From Nocardia ninae NBRC 108245 (lineage in GTDB: Bacteria > Actinomycetota > Actinomycetes > Mycobacteriales > Mycobacteriaceae), in NCBI RefSeq assembly GCF_007990755.1, contig NZ_BJXA01000086.1:1-35599 (forward strand): a DNA stretch of 35,599 nt, in the 5' to 3' direction. Under the pieces are notes generated by a model. That model searched no databases. It saw only the letters and a list, made by a program, of their open reading frames with translations, and was not told the origin of the DNA. Below, piece after piece: positions 508-33,722 of this stretch. The translations under genes and the position numbers were made by a program. Position 1 is the first letter of the stretch, and the number at the start of each line of letters is the position of its first letter.

Positions 508-1001
508 ACCGAACGGCCATCGTCCTCGGCGCCGCGACCGTCGTCGCGCTGCTCGAGCTCGTCGCCCTCGACCGGGCGCGCGGGGTGCTGTTGCTCGTCG
601 CGGCGGTCCCGCTGGCGGTGGCCCTGGCCTGGCTGGTCTGGTCGCTGCGCGACCGTGCCGAACCGAGGGCCTACCAGGATATCGACGAGATCGAGAACGG
701 CCCCGCCGAGATGCTGCGCCGCTGGCACGCCAGGGCGCAGATGCTCGCCGACCGTGCCGAGGGCACCCGCGCCGACTGGGACCGGCACCTGCGCCCCTTG
801 CTGGCCAAGGAGTTCGAGCTGTCCAGCGGGCAGCGGGTCGCGAAGAACCGCAAGGCGACCGAGGCCGCCGGTATTCATCTGTTCGGGCCGGAACTGTGGC
901 GCTGGGTGGACCCGGCCAACTCGGCATTGCGTGATCAGACCACTAGGGCACCGGGACGGGCGGCGCTGGACGAAATCCTGAGCCGCCTGCAGAGAATGTG
1001 A
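504..1001 (+). CDS. Two-helix membrane protein of the MoxR/DUF58 cluster
   Basis: This 165-residue protein starts at TTG 504, overlapping the upstream stop, with a GGGAG-type ribosome-binding site about 12 nt before it. The N-terminal 50 residues form two hydrophobic segments (about 5-20 and 27-46). A soluble, charged, mostly helical domain follows, including DIDEIENGPAEMLRRWHARA and ending in DEILSRLQRM. I do not recognise a named domain. Its stop overlaps the GTG start proposed for the MoxR gene, so it is translationally coupled on both sides. Membrane proteins of this type are common between DUF4129 and MoxR genes in actinobacteria. The function is unknown. Confidence 0.75.
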   Translation: MNRTAIVLGAATVVALLELVALDRARGVLLLVAAVPLAVALAWLVWSLRDRAEPRAYQDIDEIENGPAEMLRRWHARAQMLADRAEGTRADWDRHLRPLLAKEFELSSGQRVAKNRKATEAAGIHLFGPELWRWVDPANSALRDQTTRAPGRAALDEILSRLQRM

Positions 1002-1993
1002 AATGGGTTGAGGCAAGTGCGGGTACACACATGACGATGCCGATGGATGTCACCGTCCAGCGCAGCGACGCCGTGCTCAGGGAGCTATCCCGGGTGATCG
1101 TCGGCAAGCAGGAAGAAATGCGATTGATCATGATCGCGGTGCTGGCCGGCGGGCACGTCCTCATCGAGGACCTGCCCGGCCTGGGCAAGACGTTGATCGC
1201 CAGATCGTTCGCCGCGGCGCTCGGCCTGCAGTTCACCCGCGTGCAGTTCACGCCGGACCTGCTACCCGCCGATCTACTCGGGTCCACCATCTACGACATG
1301 TCCTCGGGCCGCTTCACTTTCCGTCGCGGTCCGGTCTTCACCAATGTGCTGCTCGCGGACGAGATCAACCGGACCCCGCCGAAAACCCAGGCCGCGCTGC
1401 TGGAGTCGATGGCCGAGGGGCAGGTCAGCATCGACGGCGAAACCTTCCAGCTGCCAAAACCTTTCATCGTGCTCGCGACCGACAACCCGATCGAGTACGA
1501 GGGCACCTACCCGCTGCCGGAGGCGCAGCTGGACCGGTTCGCGATCCAGCTCAGGCTCGGCTACCTGTCCGAACACGACGAGAAGCAGATGATCCGGCGC
1601 AGGCTGGAGCGCGGTTCGACCACGCCGCAGGTCAATCAGGTGGTGGACGCGAACGGGCTGCTGGAGATGCGCCAATCGGTCGAGTACGTCACGGTGCATC
1701 CGGATGTGGTGAGCTACGTGGTCGCGCTCGCCTCGGCCACCCGGGCGCACCCGCAGGTGGAGGTCGGCGCGAGTCCGCGCGCGGAGCTGGACCTGGTGCA
1801 GATGTCGCGGGCCAGGGCGCTGCTGCTCGGGCGCGACTACGTGATTCCGGAAGACGTGAAGGCCCTGGCGATTCCGGCCATGGCGCACCGGATCACGCTG
1901 CGTCCGGAGATGTGGGTGCGCCGGATCCGTGGTGAGGACGTGATCACCGAACTGCTGCGCCGCCTGCCCGTGCCGCGCGCCACCGTGACATGA
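998..1993 (+). CDS. MoxR-family AAA+ ATPase
   Basis: A cytoplasmic AAA+ ATPase of 331 residues, thought from the family to act as a chaperone for partners with von Willebrand-like domains. Visible motifs are Walker A GLGKT (residues 61-65), Walker B LLADEINRTPPKTQ with the MoxR-typical DEIN, sensor 1 ATDNPIEYEGTYPLPEAQ followed by LDRF, and the C-terminal lid. GTG 998 overlaps the previous stop. An in-frame ATG at 1031 (MTMPMDV) is a credible alternative. The following DUF58 protein is the usual partner. A 26-residue micro-ORF starts inside the MoxR stop codon (ATGA) and bridges to DUF58. The family call is secure; the substrate is unknown. Confidence 0.93.
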   Translation: MKWVEASAGTHMTMPMDVTVQRSDAVLRELSRVIVGKQEEMRLIMIAVLAGGHVLIEDLPGLGKTLIARSFAAALGLQFTRVQFTPDLLPADLLGSTIYDMSSGRFTFRRGPVFTNVLLADEINRTPPKTQAALLESMAEGQVSIDGETFQLPKPFIVLATDNPIEYEGTYPLPEAQLDRFAIQLRLGYLSEHDEKQMIRRRLERGSTTPQVNQVVDANGLLEMRQSVEYVTVHPDVVSYVVALASATRAHPQVEVGASPRAELDLVQMSRARALLLGRDYVIPEDVKALAIPAMAHRITLRPEMWVRRIRGEDVITELLRRLPVPRATVT

Positions 1994-2070
1994 ATGAACG
2001 CGGCGAGCGAATCGGGCGCCGGCGGGCCGTGTCCATGACGGAGCCGAGCACCGGTGAGGCGAAGTCATGA
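1990..2070 (+). CDS. Micro-ORF bridging moxR and the DUF58 gene
   Basis: A 26-codon frame begins at ATG 1990, sharing ATGA with the MoxR stop. It ends at TGA 2068-2070, sharing ATGA with the DUF58 start at 2067, so it fills the junction exactly. The N-terminus reads MNERGER and the C-terminus MTEPSTGEAKS. The last 41 bases match the fadE30/ipdF junction (about 32890-32932) at 35 positions, and the peptide end there is VTEPSAGEVQS. A third relative lies between hsaA and hsaD. It may act as a translational relay, or be a repeated DNA element that happens to stay open. No peptide function is claimed. Confidence 0.4.
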   Translation: MNERGERIGRRRAVSMTEPSTGEAKS

Positions 2071-3341
2071 GACACCGCGACGCGAGCACCGCGGTCGAGG
2101 CCGAACTGCGGTGGCGCCCTGCTCCGTTGGTCTTCATGCTGGCGATCTGCGCCGGGGTGGCACTGGTGGTCGCGATCGTGCTCGGGCGGTGGCAGCTGGT
2201 GGTCTTCGCCGCACCACTGCTCGGCGTGCTGGCGACCGCGCGGTGGCAGCAGTCCGCGACCAAGATCCAGGTCGACGGCGGCGGCACGCTGCGGTGTTTC
2301 GAGTCCGAAGAGGTGGTGCTGACCGTCGCCGCCTTCGTCGAGCAGGGGCACGCGCTGCTGCGGTTGAAGCCCGAACCCGTTGCGGCACTGGCCATCGAGG
2401 TCGAGGAGGCCAACGATTCCGGCAGCGCGCCCGCCGGCCTGCGGCTGGCCTTGTCGGCGGATCGGTGGGGTCGCTACCCGGTGTCGGTGCGGGTATCCGC
2501 GCTCAGTCCGGCGGGGCTCGCCGTCGCCACCGCGGTGCTGCCCGCCGGGCAACTGTTCGTCTATCCGATCACCGATCCACAGCGAATGCGGTTGCCGCGC
2601 ACCGAACTACCCGAACGGCTGGGTACTCACCTGACCCGCAGGCACGGTCCCGGCGTCGAGTACGCCGACATCCGCGCCTACGCCCCGGGCGATCAGCTGC
2701 GCATCGTGAACTGGCCGGTGAGTGCGCGCCGCGGCAGGCTCTACGTCACCGAGCGGCTGACCAACCGTTCCGCGGACGTCGTTGTGCTGGTGGATACCTC
2801 GCAGCAGGCGCCGGGTCCTGCCACCGACTCCCTGGAACTCTCCGTGCGCGGCGCGGCGCAGGTGGTGCAGTCCACCCTGCAAGCCGGCGACCGCACCGCC
2901 GTCGTCTGCCTCGGGCAGCAGCCGCGCTGGCTGCGCCCGGATATCGGCCGCCGTCAGTTCTATCGGATCGTCGACACGGTGCTCGACGTCGGCGACGAGT
3001 ACATCCCGACCACCGGCACCCTGGCGCCGCACTCGGCGGTGCCGCTCGGCGCGATCGTGGTCGCCTTCTCCACGCTGCTGGACACCCAGTTCGCGCTCGC
3101 GCTGATCGATCTGCGCAAGCGCGGACACGTCGTCGTGGTGGTGGATGTCTTGCGGGGCACGCCGTTCCGCAATGATCTCGATCCGACGCTGGCCAAGATG
3201 TGGCAGTTGGAGCGTGCCTCGATGTATCGCGACATGGGCACCGTCGGCGTCGACATCGTGGCCTGGCCAGCGGAAACCCGGCTCGACCAGATCATGCGGG
3301 TGCTGCCCGAACACCGCCGCACCGTCCGGGTGCGCCGATGA
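2067..3341 (+). CDS. DUF58 domain protein, MoxR partner
   Basis: A 424-residue protein starting at ATG 2067, with GGTGAGG about 10 nt upstream. Two adjacent membrane segments lie near residues 22-55. The soluble part contains the DUF58 signature GPGVEYADIRAYAPGDQLR followed by IVNWPVSARRGRLYVTE. The family form is usually D-x-R-x-Y-x-P-G-D-x-R-x-I-x-W. A vWA-like strand DVVVLVDTS follows. DUF58 proteins pair with MoxR ATPases, and some carry a metal-ion-dependent adhesion site; only a partial DxS motif is visible here. The gene shares ATGA with the preceding micro-ORF and again with the next gene. Confidence 0.88.
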   Translation: MRHRDASTAVEAELRWRPAPLVFMLAICAGVALVVAIVLGRWQLVVFAAPLLGVLATARWQQSATKIQVDGGGTLRCFESEEVVLTVAAFVEQGHALLRLKPEPVAALAIEVEEANDSGSAPAGLRLALSADRWGRYPVSVRVSALSPAGLAVATAVLPAGQLFVYPITDPQRMRLPRTELPERLGTHLTRRHGPGVEYADIRAYAPGDQLRIVNWPVSARRGRLYVTERLTNRSADVVVLVDTSQQAPGPATDSLELSVRGAAQVVQSTLQAGDRTAVVCLGQQPRWLRPDIGRRQFYRIVDTVLDVGDEYIPTTGTLAPHSAVPLGAIVVAFSTLLDTQFALALIDLRKRGHVVVVVDVLRGTPFRNDLDPTLAKMWQLERASMYRDMGTVGVDIVAWPAETRLDQIMRVLPEHRRTVRVRR

Positions 3342-13043: not shown

Positions 13044-14927
<1,884 letters not shown>

Positions 14928-14935
14928 AGCAACTC

Positions 14936-16144
14936 CTACACCATCGCGTCGGTGACGGGCAGCCCGAACTCGTGCTGACCGTACATCTGGTATGCCCGTT
15001 CGGGATCGTTCGCCGCGTGCACCCGGCCGGCGTGGGCGTCGCGCCAGAAGCGTTGCAGCGGTGTGCCGTTCGCCAGCGCGGTGGCGCCGGAGCTCTCGAA
15101 CAGCTTGTCGATGGCGGCGATCGAACGTCCGGTGGCGCGCACCTGATCGCGCCGGGCCCGCACCCGCAGGTCGAACGGGATCTCCTTGCCTGCGGCCAGC
15201 AAGGCGTATTCCTCGGCGACATTGCCCGACAGTTGGCGCCAGCCCGCGTCGATATCGCTGGACGCCTCCGCGATGCGCACCTTGGCGAACGGATCGTCCT
15301 TCGCCTTCTCGCCCGCGTAGGCCGCGCGTACCCGCTTGCCCTGATGCTCGACGTGCGCCGCGTACGCGCCGTAGGCCATGCCGACGATGGGTGTCGCGAT
15401 GGTGGTGGGATGGATTGTGCCCCAAGGCATCTTGTACACCGGATCGGTGTTCTGCTCGAGCCCGGGTGACTTCTGCTCACTCATCTTGCGGAAGCTCAGG
15501 AACCGGTGCGACGGCACGAAAACGTCTTTCACCGCAACGGTATTGGAGCCGGTTCCGCGCAGGCCGACGACGTTCCAGACGTCATCGATGCGGTAGTCGT
15601 CGCGCGGAATGAGGAAGCTGCCGAAGTCGACCGGCTTGCCGTCTTTGATCACCGGACCGCCGAGCACCGCCCAGGTGGCGTGGTCGCAACCCGAGGACCA
15701 GGCCCAGGCGCCGTTGACGAGGTAGCCGCCCTCGACCACCGTGCCCGCGCCCATCGGTGCGTAGGAGGAGGAGATCCGCACCTCGGTGTCCTCGCCCCAG
15801 ACGTCTTCCTGCGCCTGCTGCGCGAACAGCGCCAGGTGCCAATTGTGTACGCCGACAATGCCTGCCACCCAGCCGGTGGACCCGCAGGCGCTGGCCAGCT
15901 TGCGCACGGTGTCGTAGAAGACGACCGGGTCACCCGCGTGGCCGCCCCACTGTTTGGGCTGTAGGAGCCGGAAGAATCCGGTCTCCTGCAAGGCCTTCAT
16001 GGTTTCGTCGGGGATGCGCCGCAGGTCCTCGGCCTCCTGCGCGCGCTCGCGCAGCATCGGCAACAGCGCGTCGACCCGTTCGGTCACTTCTTGCGTCATC
16101 TCGGGACCTGCTCCTGCCTGGTCAATTGGATAACCGGTAGTCAT
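14936..16144 (-). CDS. hsaA: Flavin-dependent 3-HSA monooxygenase, oxygenase component HsaA
   Basis: Hydroxylates 3-HSA to the catechol 3,4-DHSA using reduced flavin from HsaB. The 402-residue protein has the acyl-CoA-dehydrogenase fold with strong HsaA signatures: LRRIPDETMKALQETGFFRL, ACGSTGWVAGIVGVHNWHLA, RISSSYAPMGAG, VVGLRGTGSNTVAVKDVFVP and VYKMPWGTIHPTTIA. ATG 16144 fits a near-leaderless promoter (TAGTCT read on the minus strand, 16159-16154). ATG 16099 (MTQEVTE) is an alternative with a GGAG upstream. First gene of hsaADCB, divergent from kshA, with KstR boxes between. Confidence 0.95.
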   Translation of the reverse strand: MTTGYPIDQAGAGPEMTQEVTERVDALLPMLRERAQEAEDLRRIPDETMKALQETGFFRLLQPKQWGGHAGDPVVFYDTVRKLASACGSTGWVAGIVGVHNWHLALFAQQAQEDVWGEDTEVRISSSYAPMGAGTVVEGGYLVNGAWAWSSGCDHATWAVLGGPVIKDGKPVDFGSFLIPRDDYRIDDVWNVVGLRGTGSNTVAVKDVFVPSHRFLSFRKMSEQKSPGLEQNTDPVYKMPWGTIHPTTIATPIVGMAYGAYAAHVEHQGKRVRAAYAGEKAKDDPFAKVRIAEASSDIDAGWRQLSGNVAEEYALLAAGKEIPFDLRVRARRDQVRATGRSIAAIDKLFESSGATALANGTPLQRFWRDAHAGRVHAANDPERAYQMYGQHEFGLPVTDAMV

Positions 16145-30046: not shown

Positions 30047-31599
30047 TACGAAATCTCCTCACGTAGTTGACGCTTGAGCACTTTCCCGGCGGCGCTGTAG
30101 GGCAGCTGGTCGCGGAACTCGATGAACCGCGGCACCTTGAAGTTGGCCAGCACGGTGGTGGCGTGGGCGAGCACCTGGTCCTCGGTGAGCGTCGCGCCCG
30201 GCTTGCGGACCACGAAAGCCTTGCCCACCTCACCCATTCGGGTATCCGGCACGCCGATCACGGCGGATTCGGCGATGCCGTCCAACCGCGCCAACGCCTG
30301 CTCGATCTCGGCCGGATACACGTTGAACCCGCCGGAGATGTACATGTCCTTGAGCCGGTCGGTGATCTTCAGGTATCCGCGTTCGTCCAGCGTGCCGACG
30401 TCGCCGGTGTGCAGCCAGCCCTCGGCATCGATGGTTTCCGCGGTGGCATCGGGATCGTCGAGGTAGCCGAGCATCACGTTCGGCCCGCGCAGCAGCACCT
30501 CGCCGTTGGGCGCGAGGCGCAGCTCGAAGTCGGCGATCGGGCGGCCGCAGGTGCCCGCGATGGTCGCCGCGTCGTCGTCCGCGCGGCACATGGTGCCGAA
30601 TCCCGCCGCCTCGGACAGCCCGTAAGCCGTGATGACGACGTCGAAGTCGAGCTCCGCGCGCATTCGCTCGATCAGCACCACCGGGACGGTCGCCGCCCCG
30701 GTGACGGCCACCCGCAGCGAGCTGAGGTCGAACTTGTCGCGGTCGGGGTAGTCGAGAATCGTCTGGTAGATGGTCGGCGGTCCGGGCAGCACCGTGACCT
30801 TCTCCTCGCTCACCAATCGCATGGTGGCGGGCACGTCGAACACCGCCTGCGGGATGATCACGGCCCCGGTGACCAGGCAGGCAAGGATGCCCGCCTTATA
30901 GCCGAAGTTGTGGAAGAACGGGCTGACCACCAGATACCGGTCGTCGCCGCGCAACGTCGCGCACTCCGCCCAGGCCCGCACCACCGACAGCGCCTGCCGA
31001 TGGGCGACCACGGTGCCCTTGCTGCGGCCGGTGGTGCCGGAGGTGAACAAGATGTCGGAGGTGTCCTCGGGGCTGACCGCCGACGCGCGCTCTTCCGCTT
31101 CGGCAGGCGTGGCCTTTTCGGCGACCCCGGCGAGCTCGGACCAGTCGAATGCGGTCTCGTCACTGGTCCGGGTGCCCGGTTCGACGGGGATGACGATGAC
31201 GGTCTCGATATCGAGTTCCGGGGCGCTCACGCGCAATTCGGCGAGCCGGTCGCGGCCGAGGAAGGTGCCCGCGATGAACAACGCCCTGGCGTCGACCCGG
31301 CGCAGCACGTCGGCGGCCTCGTCGGCGACGTAGCGGGTGTTCAACGGCACCAGCGACGCGCCGACATAGTGGGCGGCCAGCGCCGCGACGACCCAGTGGT
31401 GGGTATTGGGCGCCCACATGGCCACCCGGTCACCGGACTGCACGCCGCGCGCGATGAGCGCCCGCGCCACCTCCTGAACCGCCGCGAGCAGCTGCGTCCA
31501 GTCCAGCCGGACCGCGCCGTCGGCGAGGGCGGGAGCGGTGCCGAACGTGGCCGCGGCATGCCGCAGCGCCAGCGGAGTCGTCAGAGCAGGGGTTGTCAC
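30046..31599 (-). CDS. fadD3: HIP-CoA synthetase FadD3
   Basis: Activates HIP (the steroid C/D-ring propionate) with ATP and CoA, the entry step to ring C/D degradation. The 517-residue ANL-superfamily enzyme has P-loop TSGTTGRSKG, AYGLSEAAGFG, GWLHTGD, the hinge KITDRLKDMYISGGFNVYPA and the catalytic lysine in SAAGKVLKRQL. GTG 31599 is chosen for its AAGGA 5-6 nt upstream. GTG 31626 gives nine more residues and lacks such a site. First gene of the leftward KstR2 operon; identity rests on this context and on family motifs. Confidence 0.92.
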   Translation of the reverse strand: MTTPALTTPLALRHAAATFGTAPALADGAVRLDWTQLLAAVQEVARALIARGVQSGDRVAMWAPNTHHWVVAALAAHYVGASLVPLNTRYVADEAADVLRRVDARALFIAGTFLGRDRLAELRVSAPELDIETVIVIPVEPGTRTSDETAFDWSELAGVAEKATPAEAEERASAVSPEDTSDILFTSGTTGRSKGTVVAHRQALSVVRAWAECATLRGDDRYLVVSPFFHNFGYKAGILACLVTGAVIIPQAVFDVPATMRLVSEEKVTVLPGPPTIYQTILDYPDRDKFDLSSLRVAVTGAATVPVVLIERMRAELDFDVVITAYGLSEAAGFGTMCRADDDAATIAGTCGRPIADFELRLAPNGEVLLRGPNVMLGYLDDPDATAETIDAEGWLHTGDVGTLDERGYLKITDRLKDMYISGGFNVYPAEIEQALARLDGIAESAVIGVPDTRMGEVGKAFVVRKPGATLTEDQVLAHATTVLANFKVPRFIEFRDQLPYSAAGKVLKRQLREEIS

Positions 31600-31645
31600 G
31601 GTGGTCCTTACGTCCGTGTCGGGCACTTATGCGAGCGCCCTACAA

Positions 31646-31659
31646 AGCAAGTGCTTGGT
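31646..31659. promoter_or_regulatory. KstR2 operator shared by fadD3 and fadE30
   Basis: AGCAAGTGCTTGGT matches the KstR2 consensus AnCAAGnnCTTGnT at every fixed base. It lies between the divergent fadD3 and fadE30 starts. The acyl-CoA effector known for KstR2 is HIP-CoA, the product of FadD3. Confidence 0.9.
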
Positions 31660-31672
31660 AGGTTATCCTACC
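31657..31672. promoter_or_regulatory. Dyad with back-to-back -10 elements, fadE30/fadD3
   Basis: GGTAGG-TTAT-CCTACC is a 6-bp-arm dyad adjoining the KstR2 box. On the plus strand TATCCT (31664-31669) is a -10 candidate six bases before the fadE30 GTG at 31676. On the minus strand TAGGAT (31670-31665) could serve fadD3. Both would be occluded by bound KstR2. Confidence 0.5.
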
Positions 31673-31675
31673 GGC

Positions 31676-32890
31676 GTGGGTGCGATCCAGACCTCAGAAT
31701 CCGACACCGCCGCGTCCGGCGGGCGGTTTTCCGCGACGCAAGACGCGCGATTCGCCGCCGAGGTGCGCGAGTGGCTGGCGGAGAACCTGAACGGCGAATT
31801 CCGCGAGCTGCGCGGGCTCGGCGGACCGGGCCGGGAACACGAGGCCTTCGACGAGCGCCTGGCCTGGGACCGGCACCTGGCCGCCGCGGGCTGGACCTGC
31901 CTGGGCTGGCCGAAGGAGTACGGCGGCCGCGAGGCGACCGTGCGCCAGCAGGTGATCTTCCACGAGGAATACGCGAAAGCGAACGCGCCCGCCCGGGTTT
32001 CGCACGTCGGCGAGGAACTGCTCGGGCCGACCGTGCTCGCCTTCGGCACCCAGGCGCAGAAGGACCGCTTCCTGCCCGGCATCCGTACCGTCGGCGAGCT
32101 GTGGTGCCAGGGCTATTCGGAGCCGGGCGCGGGCTCGGACCTGGCCGCGATCACCACCGCGGCGCGGCTGGACGGCGACGAATGGTCGATCAACGGCCAG
32201 AAGATCTGGACCTCGCTGGCCCACGTCGCCGACTGGTGCTTCGTGATCGCCCGCACCGAGCGCGGCTCGGTCCGCCACAAGGGCCTGTCCTACCTGCTGG
32301 TTCCGATGCGCCAGCCCGGCATCGACGTGCGCCCGATCATCCAGCTCACCGGCACCTCGGAGTTCAACGAGGTCTTCTTCGACGACGCGCGCACCGCCGC
32401 GGACCTGGTGGTCGGCGCGCCGGGCGAGGGCTGGCGCATCGCCATGGGCACCCTGACCTTCGAGCGCGGCATCTCCACCCTCGGCCAGCAGATCAGGTTC
32501 GCCAGGGAGCTGGCCGACGTCGAGGCGCTGGCCCGCCGCACCGGGGCCGCCGACGATCCGCTCATCGCCGACCGGATCGACCGGGCCTGGGTGGGCCTGC
32601 GGGTACTGCGCGCGCACGCCATCCGCACCATGGAGGGCGCGGGCGTGGACGACGGGGGACAGGCCTCGGTCGCGAAACTGTTGTGGGCCAACTGGCATCG
32701 CGGACTCGGCGAGCTCGCCATGGCCGTGCTCGGCCCGGCCGGCCTGGTGGCCGAGGAGAACGACTTGAACGAATGGCAGCGGCTGTATCTGTTCACCCGC
32801 GCCGACACCATCTACGGAGGTTCGAACGAAGTGCAGCGCAACATCATTGCCGAGCGCGTGCTCGGTCTGCCGCGGGAGGCGCGTCCATGA
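31676..32890 (+). CDS. fadE30: Acyl-CoA dehydrogenase FadE30
   Basis: A 404-residue full-length acyl-CoA dehydrogenase, first gene of the rightward KstR2 operon. In the M. tuberculosis pathway FadE30 dehydrogenates a HIP-CoA derivative. Motifs are WPKEYGGREATVRQQVIFHE, CQGYSEPGAGSDLAAITTAA, INGQKIWTSLAHVADWCFVI and the C-terminal SNEVQRNIIAERVLGLPRE. GTG 31676 is chosen as a leaderless start, seven bases after the -10 candidate TATCCT. A longer frame to the left crosses the operator. The stop shares ATGA with a 14-codon micro-ORF. Confidence 0.92.
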   Translation: MGAIQTSESDTAASGGRFSATQDARFAAEVREWLAENLNGEFRELRGLGGPGREHEAFDERLAWDRHLAAAGWTCLGWPKEYGGREATVRQQVIFHEEYAKANAPARVSHVGEELLGPTVLAFGTQAQKDRFLPGIRTVGELWCQGYSEPGAGSDLAAITTAARLDGDEWSINGQKIWTSLAHVADWCFVIARTERGSVRHKGLSYLLVPMRQPGIDVRPIIQLTGTSEFNEVFFDDARTAADLVVGAPGEGWRIAMGTLTFERGISTLGQQIRFARELADVEALARRTGAADDPLIADRIDRAWVGLRVLRAHAIRTMEGAGVDDGGQASVAKLLWANWHRGLGELAMAVLGPAGLVAEENDLNEWQRLYLFTRADTIYGGSNEVQRNIIAERVLGLPREARP

Positions 32891-32931
32891 GGTCTGTGAC
32901 GGAGCCGAGCGCCGGCGAGGTGCAGTCATGA
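32887..32931 (+). CDS. Micro-ORF bridging fadE30 and ipdF
   Basis: Fourteen codons, MRSVTEPSAGEVQS, start at ATG 32887 inside the fadE30 stop (ATGA) and end at TGA 32929-32931 inside the ipdF start (ATGA). It fills the junction exactly and is the shortest member of the family also seen at 1990-2070 and 14844-14927. The GGCGAGG within it may act as the ipdF ribosome-binding site, which alone could explain part of its conservation. Confidence 0.4.
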   Translation: MRSVTEPSAGEVQS

Positions 32932-33722
32932 GCGGCCTATCGGTGGCGCCGGCTCCCATCCCCGGGCACGGTCTGCTGACCGGCCGTGCCGCCGTCATCA
33001 CCGCCGCGGCGGGCACCGGCATCGGCTCGGCCACCGCGCGCAGGCTGCTCGCCGAGGGCGCGGATGTGGTCGTCTCCGATTGGCACGAGCGGCGTTTGGC
33101 CGAGACGGCCACCGAACTCGCGGCCGAGTTCCCGGACCGCAAAGTCGCCTCGATCGCCTGCGACGTGCAGAGCACCGAGCAGGTCAACGCGCTGGTTCAG
33201 GGTGCGGCCGAGGCGCTCGGCCGGATCGACATCATGGTCAACAACGCCGGGCTCGGCGGCGAGACCCCGGTGGTCGACATGACCGACGAACAGTGGGATC
33301 GCGTCCTCGACATCACCCTCAACGGCACCTTCCGCTGCACCCGTGCGGCGCTGGGCTACTTCCGTGCCGCGGGCCACGGCGGCGTGATCGTCAACAACGC
33401 CAGCGTGCTCGGCTGGCGCGCGCAACACGGTCAGGCCCATTACGCCGCGGCCAAAGCCGGTGTGATGGCGCTGACCCGGTGCAGTGCCGTCGAGGCCGCC
33501 GAACTCGGCGTGCGGATCAACGCGGTCGCGCCGAGCATCGCCAGGCACGCTTTTCTGGACAAAGTCAGTTCGACCGAACTGCTCGACCGGCTCTCCGAGC
33601 GGGAAGCTTTCGGCCGGGCCGCCGAGCCCTGGGAGGTCGCCGCCACCATCGCCATGCTGGCCAGTGACTACACCTCGTATCTGACCGGTGAGGTCGTTTC
33701 GGTCAGCAGTCAGCGCGCCTGA
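32928..33722 (+). CDS. ipdF: Short-chain dehydrogenase IpdF
   Basis: An NAD(P)-dependent alcohol dehydrogenase, proposed in M. tuberculosis (Rv3559c) to oxidise the ring hydroxyl of a HIP-CoA-derived intermediate. The 264-residue classical SDR has AAAGTGIGSATARRLL, NNAGLGG, catalytic Ser in NNASVLGW and YAAAKAG (Tyr-x3-Lys). ATG 32928 is taken; the longer upstream frame lies in fadE30. The gene order fadE30-ipdF and the KstR2 operator upstream support the name. Confidence 0.9.
   Translation: MSGLSVAPAPIPGHGLLTGRAAVITAAAGTGIGSATARRLLAEGADVVVSDWHERRLAETATELAAEFPDRKVASIACDVQSTEQVNALVQGAAEALGRIDIMVNNAGLGGETPVVDMTDEQWDRVLDITLNGTFRCTRAALGYFRAAGHGGVIVNNASVLGWRAQHGQAHYAAAKAGVMALTRCSAVEAAELGVRINAVAPSIARHAFLDKVSSTELLDRLSEREAFGRAAEPWEVAATIAMLASDYTSYLTGEVVSVSSQRA

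Follow-up and report, generated by a model that had tools for sequence, protein, structure and literature searches.

The short repeats closest to the element dealt with here are the mycobacterial MIRUs, which were reportedly described by Supply et al. in 1997 as units without dyad symmetry and whose insertion motif is DTGA. As summarised in a 2025 review, MIRUs insert at start codons and carry an internal open reading frame that is coupled to the gene at −4 nt (PMC12548453). The size of the units is given as 77 bp (PMC2453075, PMC4213456) or as 40–100 bp at 41 sites (PMC2734929), and their occurrence is given as confined to M. leprae and the tuberculosis complex (PMC4213456). Two other kinds of small bacterial repeat lend themselves to comparison. 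REP and REPIN elements are reported to be extragenic, to be moved by RAYT transposases and to lie near a RAYT gene (PMC3116915), while the Rickettsia palindromic elements and ORF-bearing bacterial MITEs are reported to be fused in frame inside protein genes (PMC2229807).

The present element was followed up from Nocardia ninae NBRC 108245, in a stretch of 35,599 nucleotides (contig NZ_BJXA01000086.1, positions 1 to 35,599; the window hereafter), where one copy joins a moxR-type AAA ATPase gene (998..1993, + strand; Pfam AAA_3, 4.1e-63) to a DUF58 gene (2067..3341, +; Pfam DUF58, 6.5e-16). An earlier note on this DNA had drawn a 26-codon frame from the ATGA of the upstream stop to the ATGA of the downstream start, and that frame is indeed present at 1990..2070 (+), reading MNERGERIGRRRAVSMTEPSTGEAKS. 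The TGA stop of the ATPase gene lies inside ATGA 1990–1993, and the start ATG of the DUF58 gene lies in ATGA 2067–2070, in a 4-nt overlap with the stop of the micro-ORF. The copy scores 66 bits (E 2.3e-11) against the covariance model of the family. Its 5' segment (1990..2013, +), for which the family consensus is GTGAGCGAGCGYAGCGAGCGAAYC, is the place of a proposed 5' hairpin with G.A steps (RNAalifold, 22 copies), and a 3' hairpin, CATGAC-CGG-...-GTCATG, occupies 2034..2069 (+), with the DUF58 start codon as the 3' foot of its stem. This second hairpin has a folding energy of −16.3 kcal/mol (z −4.47; equally stable shuffles, 0 of 200) and holds an SD-like motif, GAGG, at 2056..2059 (+), 8–11 nt upstream of the DUF58 start.

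Altogether the window has three copies, at 1990–2070 (+), at 14844–14927 (−) and, as a remnant, at 32887–32931 (+). The names hsaA, hsaD, fadE30 and ipdF used for the genes next to the latter two are those of the earlier note, Pfam supporting the enzyme folds or families. The second copy is again full, with 84 nt and a 27-residue frame (14844..14927, −), and it is coupled to the start codon of the alpha/beta hydrolase gene hsaD (13969..14847, −; Abhydrolase_1, 3.7e-30), downstream of the acyl-CoA-dehydrogenase-fold gene hsaA (14936..16144, −; Acyl-CoA_dh_2, 6.7e-41). This junction had been listed as a third member of the family, which it is, but it does not fill a stop/start overlap: hsaA stops in a TAG upstream of the element, which itself sits on the hsaD start behind an AGGAG. 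The same site is empty in two relatives, with a gap of 0. The remaining copy lies between the acyl-CoA dehydrogenase gene fadE30 (31538..32890, +; Acyl-CoA_dh_1, 8.4e-25), whose stop is inside ATGA 32887–32890, and the short-chain dehydrogenase gene ipdF downstream (32928..33722, +; adh_short_C2, 2e-58). The agreement at 35 of 41 positions that had been noticed between this junction and the moxR/DUF58 junction, 31 kb away, was recovered (2031–2071 against 32892–32932, 41 nt, 85%), although the fadE30/ipdF copy proved to be not full-length but a 5'-truncated remnant of 45 nt, MRSVTEPSAGEVQS (32887..32931, +), with ATGA at each end and still in frame. It scores 39.4 bits, the bounds set by the model (32856–32931) extending into the upstream gene. 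A search of the window with Rfam at the gathering threshold gave 0 matches, and a 36-mer of the moxR/DUF58 copy, allowed up to 3 mismatches, was found in the window once, as itself (0.00 expected).

The alignment and the covariance model were built from 22 full copies, and the model returned at least 82 matches at E<0.01, in 72 loci, and at least 95 at E<=1 from the N. ninae genome, counts that are lower bounds from the scoring of 150 of 22,850 first-look candidates. The suspicion of a dispersed repeat was thereby borne out. With up to 2 mismatches allowed, CGGAGCCGAGCGNNAGCGAGG was matched at 61 places of the genome, against 1 for the reversed control, and blastn found 42 places at E<=10, some of them by chance. 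The analyses that follow used 90 of the 95 matches, five weak ones of 20.5–26.9 bits being left out; a rerun of cmsearch, which dropped overlapping array members, gave 78 matches, and the coordinates used are those of the 95-match search. The element is mostly 81 or 84 nt long, both ends counted, and begins and ends in [AGT]TGA.

The copies end where genes begin. The 4-nt start overlap predicted at the end of the element is seen in 64 of the 82 copies (68 of 90 if weaker matches are included). The last bases of these copies coincide with the start codon of an ORF, 60 codons long or longer, that runs the same way as the element, and the micro-ORF terminates 4 nt inside this downstream gene. The 22 non-coupled copies among the 90 are made up of 13 inner array members and 9 single copies, two of which (C83 and C106) run into a start slightly further on, so that about 7 single copies of the 90 are without a clear downstream start. 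Under a stricter test, 59 of 81 element RTGAs opened an ORF of at least 150 codons with a GC3 of at least 0.8, compared with 431 of the 2358 RTGAs that lie elsewhere in these loci; in the named loci of other genomes, the figures were 67 of 120 and 1680 of 10,472. The downstream genes are of many kinds, with 68 different ORFs represented. A 4-nt overlap with the upstream gene was scored in 20 of the 68 coupled copies, the remainder lying behind a leader, and an SD-like 4-mer is found ahead of the element at 28 of 41 leader-type sites and, within the element, upstream of the gene in 66 of the 68. Because many coupled copies sit behind a leader and not in a 4-nt overlap, the target is the start codon rather than the operon gap. 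The filling of gaps between cistrons therefore describes those 20 copies and not the others, and from the proposal of a coupling cassette or a repeat spreading into operon gaps, the dispersed repeat and the coupled overlap stand while the restriction to operon gaps falls.

The claim that conservation extends from the DNA to the reading frame has also held, as 59 of the 64 coupled copies are divisible by 3; with this and with 64 of 82 copies on the start of an ORF, the random orientation, frequent frameshifts and lack of coupling that were to mark a non-coding repeat were not seen. Divisibility by 3 applies to 65 of the 74 copies with both ends intact, which range in length from 57 to 93 nt, leaving 9 exceptions among the 74 and 5 among the 61 coupled ones; the corresponding binomial p of 3e-22 overstates independence, because the copies are related. 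The frame also survives in remnants whose 5' half is missing. Of the matches in other genomes that have a downstream ORF and a 5' end which could be recognised, 31 of 33 are in frame; the strict pattern used for this count knew the 5' ends of 46 of 131 matches. For eight other families the figure is 26 of 29, these 29 being drawn from 90 matches outside family f1. A separate set of 26 matches contains 18 with a length that is a multiple of 3 and a terminal TGA; of the other 8, 5 belong to fused arrays and three (L373, L380 and L387) do not. In an orthologous array of three Nocardia species (L375, L376 and L386), the inner RTGA is lost, and single frames of 81, 81 and 54 codons end in ATGA at the same downstream gene. 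As a side observation, this fused array has the appearance of a new small gene born from a repeat.

The peptide is a different matter. Among the 61 coupled copies, the 5' half is in the QRVN frame in 12 and the 3' half in the GAERSE frame in 2, and because such compensated frameshifts change the peptide, it is openness that is kept; what is conserved is an open path for the ribosome to the overlap. The shared peptide end that first drew attention to these junctions does not survive as a conserved product, since both the 5' and the 3' half occur in two frames, other families encode quite different peptides and the shared DNA is largely hairpin.

That the element is an insertion follows from relatives that have empty sites with one ATGA. 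Thirty moxR/DUF58 junctions of relatives were read, among which there were 21 bare ATGA overlaps, 3 junctions with the element or a remnant and 6 with other spacers or unparsed. The junctions of N. ninae were also set against two relatives, in a comparison of 34 of 65 junctions that gave 60 regions and 59 pairs (two pieces share the name G223). Twenty-eight of these pairs were empty, 12 were scored as filled, 5 were in between and 13 had flanks that could not be aligned; 29 had satisfied the rule for empty sites, and C44 in G195 was removed, its site being filled. At many empty sites, the flank joins the [AGT]TGA of the gene without a missing base, and the occupation of orthologous sites varies patchily among close relatives. 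The two terminal [AGT]TGA of each copy share their first base in 54 of 63 cases (63 of the 70 copies with intact ends and at least 30 bits, tandem members being excluded by a rough rule), which fits the expected 4-nt duplication. A target-site duplication, which is a trait of MITEs, is thus found at 4 nt, with no similarity of the flanks beyond it; no duplication longer than 4 nt was seen, positions +1 and +2 after RTGA being slightly above shuffles (z 2.7 and 2.3) and all upstream positions at z <=2.3.

A tree of 29 of the 30 moxR/DUF58 junctions (the short L271 was omitted, and six loci labelled empty in it have spacers other than a bare ATGA) places 81-, 75- and 45-nt forms from three species within one 7-species clade (95/92). 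The four species nested in that clade have a precise empty site, so that one must suppose either exact loss of the element or more than one insertion, and the site has either decayed via in-frame forms or been hit more than once. With regard to a mobiliser, Y1_Tnp (PF01797) had 0 matches in the genome, while the control search matched in 5 of 14. A search for left ends without a right end, as expected of a larger parent element, used a pattern that excludes left ends of the QRVN type and gave 35 matches, of which 34 were known copies; an insertion sequence with the element's ends in the same genome, considered as a candidate, was accordingly unsupported within the range of that pattern. The sole left-end match outside the listed copies, G000:C91:838-858 (−), may be a broken copy.

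Structure is conserved as well as frame. Two hairpins are predicted by RNAalifold from the 22 copies, a 5' one with G.A steps and a 3' one that ends in the start codon, with 95.1% of the cells in the alignment paired, compared with 90.3 in shuffles (91.4% for the 5' segment), and 26 cells in which both sides have changed, compared with 10.7 in shuffles, a value that 0 of 500 shuffles reach. The pair formed between the start-codon base and its stem partner was C-G in 56, T-A in 54 and other in 3 of 113 matches, which come from 114 named loci in 29 named Nocardia species, one Nocardia MAG and Kribbella soli. In N. ninae itself (n=63), this pair is T-A in 25 copies, C-G in 24 and A-T in 1, with 13 unpaired; 6 of these 13 mismatches are C against A and none is T against G, as if GTG had become ATG after insertion. 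By folding energy, the mean z of the last 37 nt, over 59 copies, is −3.1 for the coding strand and −1.2 for the opposite one. Against shuffles, the element as a whole has a slight advantage (z −0.49) and its first 25 nt have none (z +0.20), and for this reason energy supports the 3' hairpin only; a stable 5' hairpin is unsupported by energy, yet its pairs covary in the 22-copy alignment. A central hairpin of varying sequence is weak (z −0.64). In other families and genera, 2 or 3 of the 3 RTG bases were paired in 19 of 19 chosen elements, each folded over the piece length that gave the best z relative to simple shuffles, a choice by which those z values lean high.

The element is not peculiar to one species. 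Stretches of the N. ninae genome matched named Nocardia records, at best N. suismassiliense with 97.5% over 2601 nt. Model matches were found in at least 12 of the 151 genomes sampled from the same family, 10 of them in the same genus and one each in two others, and in at least 32 of 394 genomes sampled from the class, in 16 of 137 genera and 9 families; both counts are lower bounds, with 30 and 11 candidates scored per genome, respectively. The 5' half is recognisably alike throughout, whereas the 3' half differs by family and folds alike, and the peptide ends in other families read EPSGEEVA, HGAKRVRA, RPTSASEEDA and LREEDL. Two observations touch on the borders of these groups. The 84-nt in-frame copy of Kribbella soli (L145, 909-993) is almost the same as that of Nocardia and may have been transferred horizontally between orders. 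In G012 and G923 (L371-L373, L411 and L412), which belong to different families, a common 3' half reading HGAKRVRA was found, as in a subfamily that crosses family borders.

When set beside the known systems, the element appears to work like a MIRU. Both are short dispersed repeats (77-bp units compared with 81 nt minus the duplicated 4 here), both enter genes at the start codon and bring an ORF that is coupled to the gene by a spacing of −4 nt, and both form tandem copies. The earlier note knew of no description, but the principle had already been described for the mycobacterial MIRUs (PMC12548453). The differences lie in distribution, with Nocardia and eight other families here against M. 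leprae and the tuberculosis complex as the published range of MIRUs (PMC4213456). REP and REPIN elements resemble the element as short hairpin-bearing dispersed elements in tandem clusters, and differ in that the present copies have an open frame and start codons as their place, and Y1_Tnp had no match in the genome. The Rickettsia palindromic elements are likewise small and mobile, contain an open frame as well as a stem-loop, and are tolerated through preservation of the frame; here, however, the element ends at the start codon of the gene and leaves the product intact. A further difference from MIRUs is the covarying 3' hairpin that includes the start codon here, MIRUs being reportedly without dyad symmetry. 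The published MIRU primer site (PMC2453075) was not found in the 401 and 396 genomes sampled, which include no M. tuberculosis genome. A literature search by title and the start of the abstract, with subscription journals outside its range, found no such element described in Nocardia or across the Actinomycetes, and neither the occurrence across the Actinomycetes nor the start-codon hairpin was seen described in that literature.

The reading to which we give a probability of roughly 0.85 is that of a non-autonomous, MIRU-like interspersed element that enters [AG]TGA starts in the direction of the gene, with the gene restored by termination-reinitiation and the insertion near-neutral. After insertion, the old start codon, together with its gene overlap or ribosome-binding site, begins the element's short frame, and a second [AG]TGA holds both the stop of this frame and the start of the gene. 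Ribosomes would initiate at the old signal and read the 15–30 codons, and in doing so they would melt the 3' hairpin that is predicted to hide the SD-like GAGG and the start codon. A ribosome would then stop at the TGA and restart at the overlapping ATG or GTG, and the gene would still be expressed. The element probably hands the ribosome to the interrupted gene through its own tiny frame in this way, so that it does little harm. If insertion is nearly neutral, only copies with an open frame would persist, and the frame would be kept while the peptide drifts. Spread itself would be the work of a mobiliser; like translation, hairpin melting, restart and near-neutrality, the mobility of the element is something we infer from comparison of sequences.

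Other explanations account for some of the same evidence. The hairpin could have made the element a domesticated regulatory cassette, in which the downstream gene is strictly dependent on, or tunable by, upstream translation, and the start codon and SD-like GAGG within a stem that covaries with that codon are what such a cassette would contain; we regard it as unlikely in general, the many kinds of downstream genes and the patchy orthologous presence being as for neutral insertion, though it may apply at single sites. A structured non-coding repeat of the REP or MITE type, with a conserved hairpin and an open frame that is a by-product of stop-free GAGCGAGCG-rich sequence, would agree with the 3' hairpin (z −3.1 on the coding strand), the strong covariation, the coincidence of conserved blocks with stem arms and the scarcity of stops in high-GC sequence. 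It would leave the 65 of 74 lengths divisible by 3 despite a centre of varying length, the position on start codons, the compensated frameshifts, the fused in-frame arrays and the in-frame remnants without a 5' half to be explained, and is in our judgement distinctly unlikely.

Still more improbable is a functional micropeptide family (SERSER...TEPSASEAES) copied along with its coupling site. Some residues are conserved and the frame is open from the start codon, but both halves are read in two frames, the ends differ in other families, and the peptides of remnants, MRQPRVPSRSEARS, are unrelated. Equally improbable is spread solely by homologous recombination or gene conversion between similar junctions, with no insertion at all; the searches of the genome for Y1_Tnp and for left ends, which did not find a mobiliser, would suit it, while the precise empty sites at non-homologous genes and the lack of flank similarity past the RTGA speak for an insertion of the kind proposed above. 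An extension of the MIRU-like reading, which is put forward tentatively and is itself doubtful, is a class-wide superfamily of mobile elements that find start codons through pairing of a CAY in the 3' hairpin with the target RTG, ATG-type elements going into ATGA sites and GTG-type elements into GTGA sites, by way of a single-stranded intermediate and some recombinase; the MIRUs would be one lineage of it.

If the MIRU-like reading is true, hundreds of actinobacterial genes bear an unannotated frame of 14–30 codons at their start, and the element exploits termination-reinitiation to be harmless. It would account for odd start-codon calls and for short hypothetical proteins beginning MSERSER, and how MIRUs choose start codons would become testable in many genera. 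The junctions, as bare overlaps, single inserts, arrays and decaying inserts at orthologous sites, would also be a natural set of coupling junctions with which to measure reinitiation, and the variable tandem loci would be usable for typing Nocardia.

Tandem arrays would form when insertion recurs, or copying is unequal, at the RTGA that their units share. Nine are found among the 90 analysed copies, and their members share an RTGA in a 4-nt overlap, with one 13-nt exception; the array at C45 has 3.2 copies of an 80 bp unit with 98% matches. Another, at G000:C10:38587-38959, places five units of 69 to 81 nt before one gene, and two of these units have internal stops or shifts, which is decay within an array.
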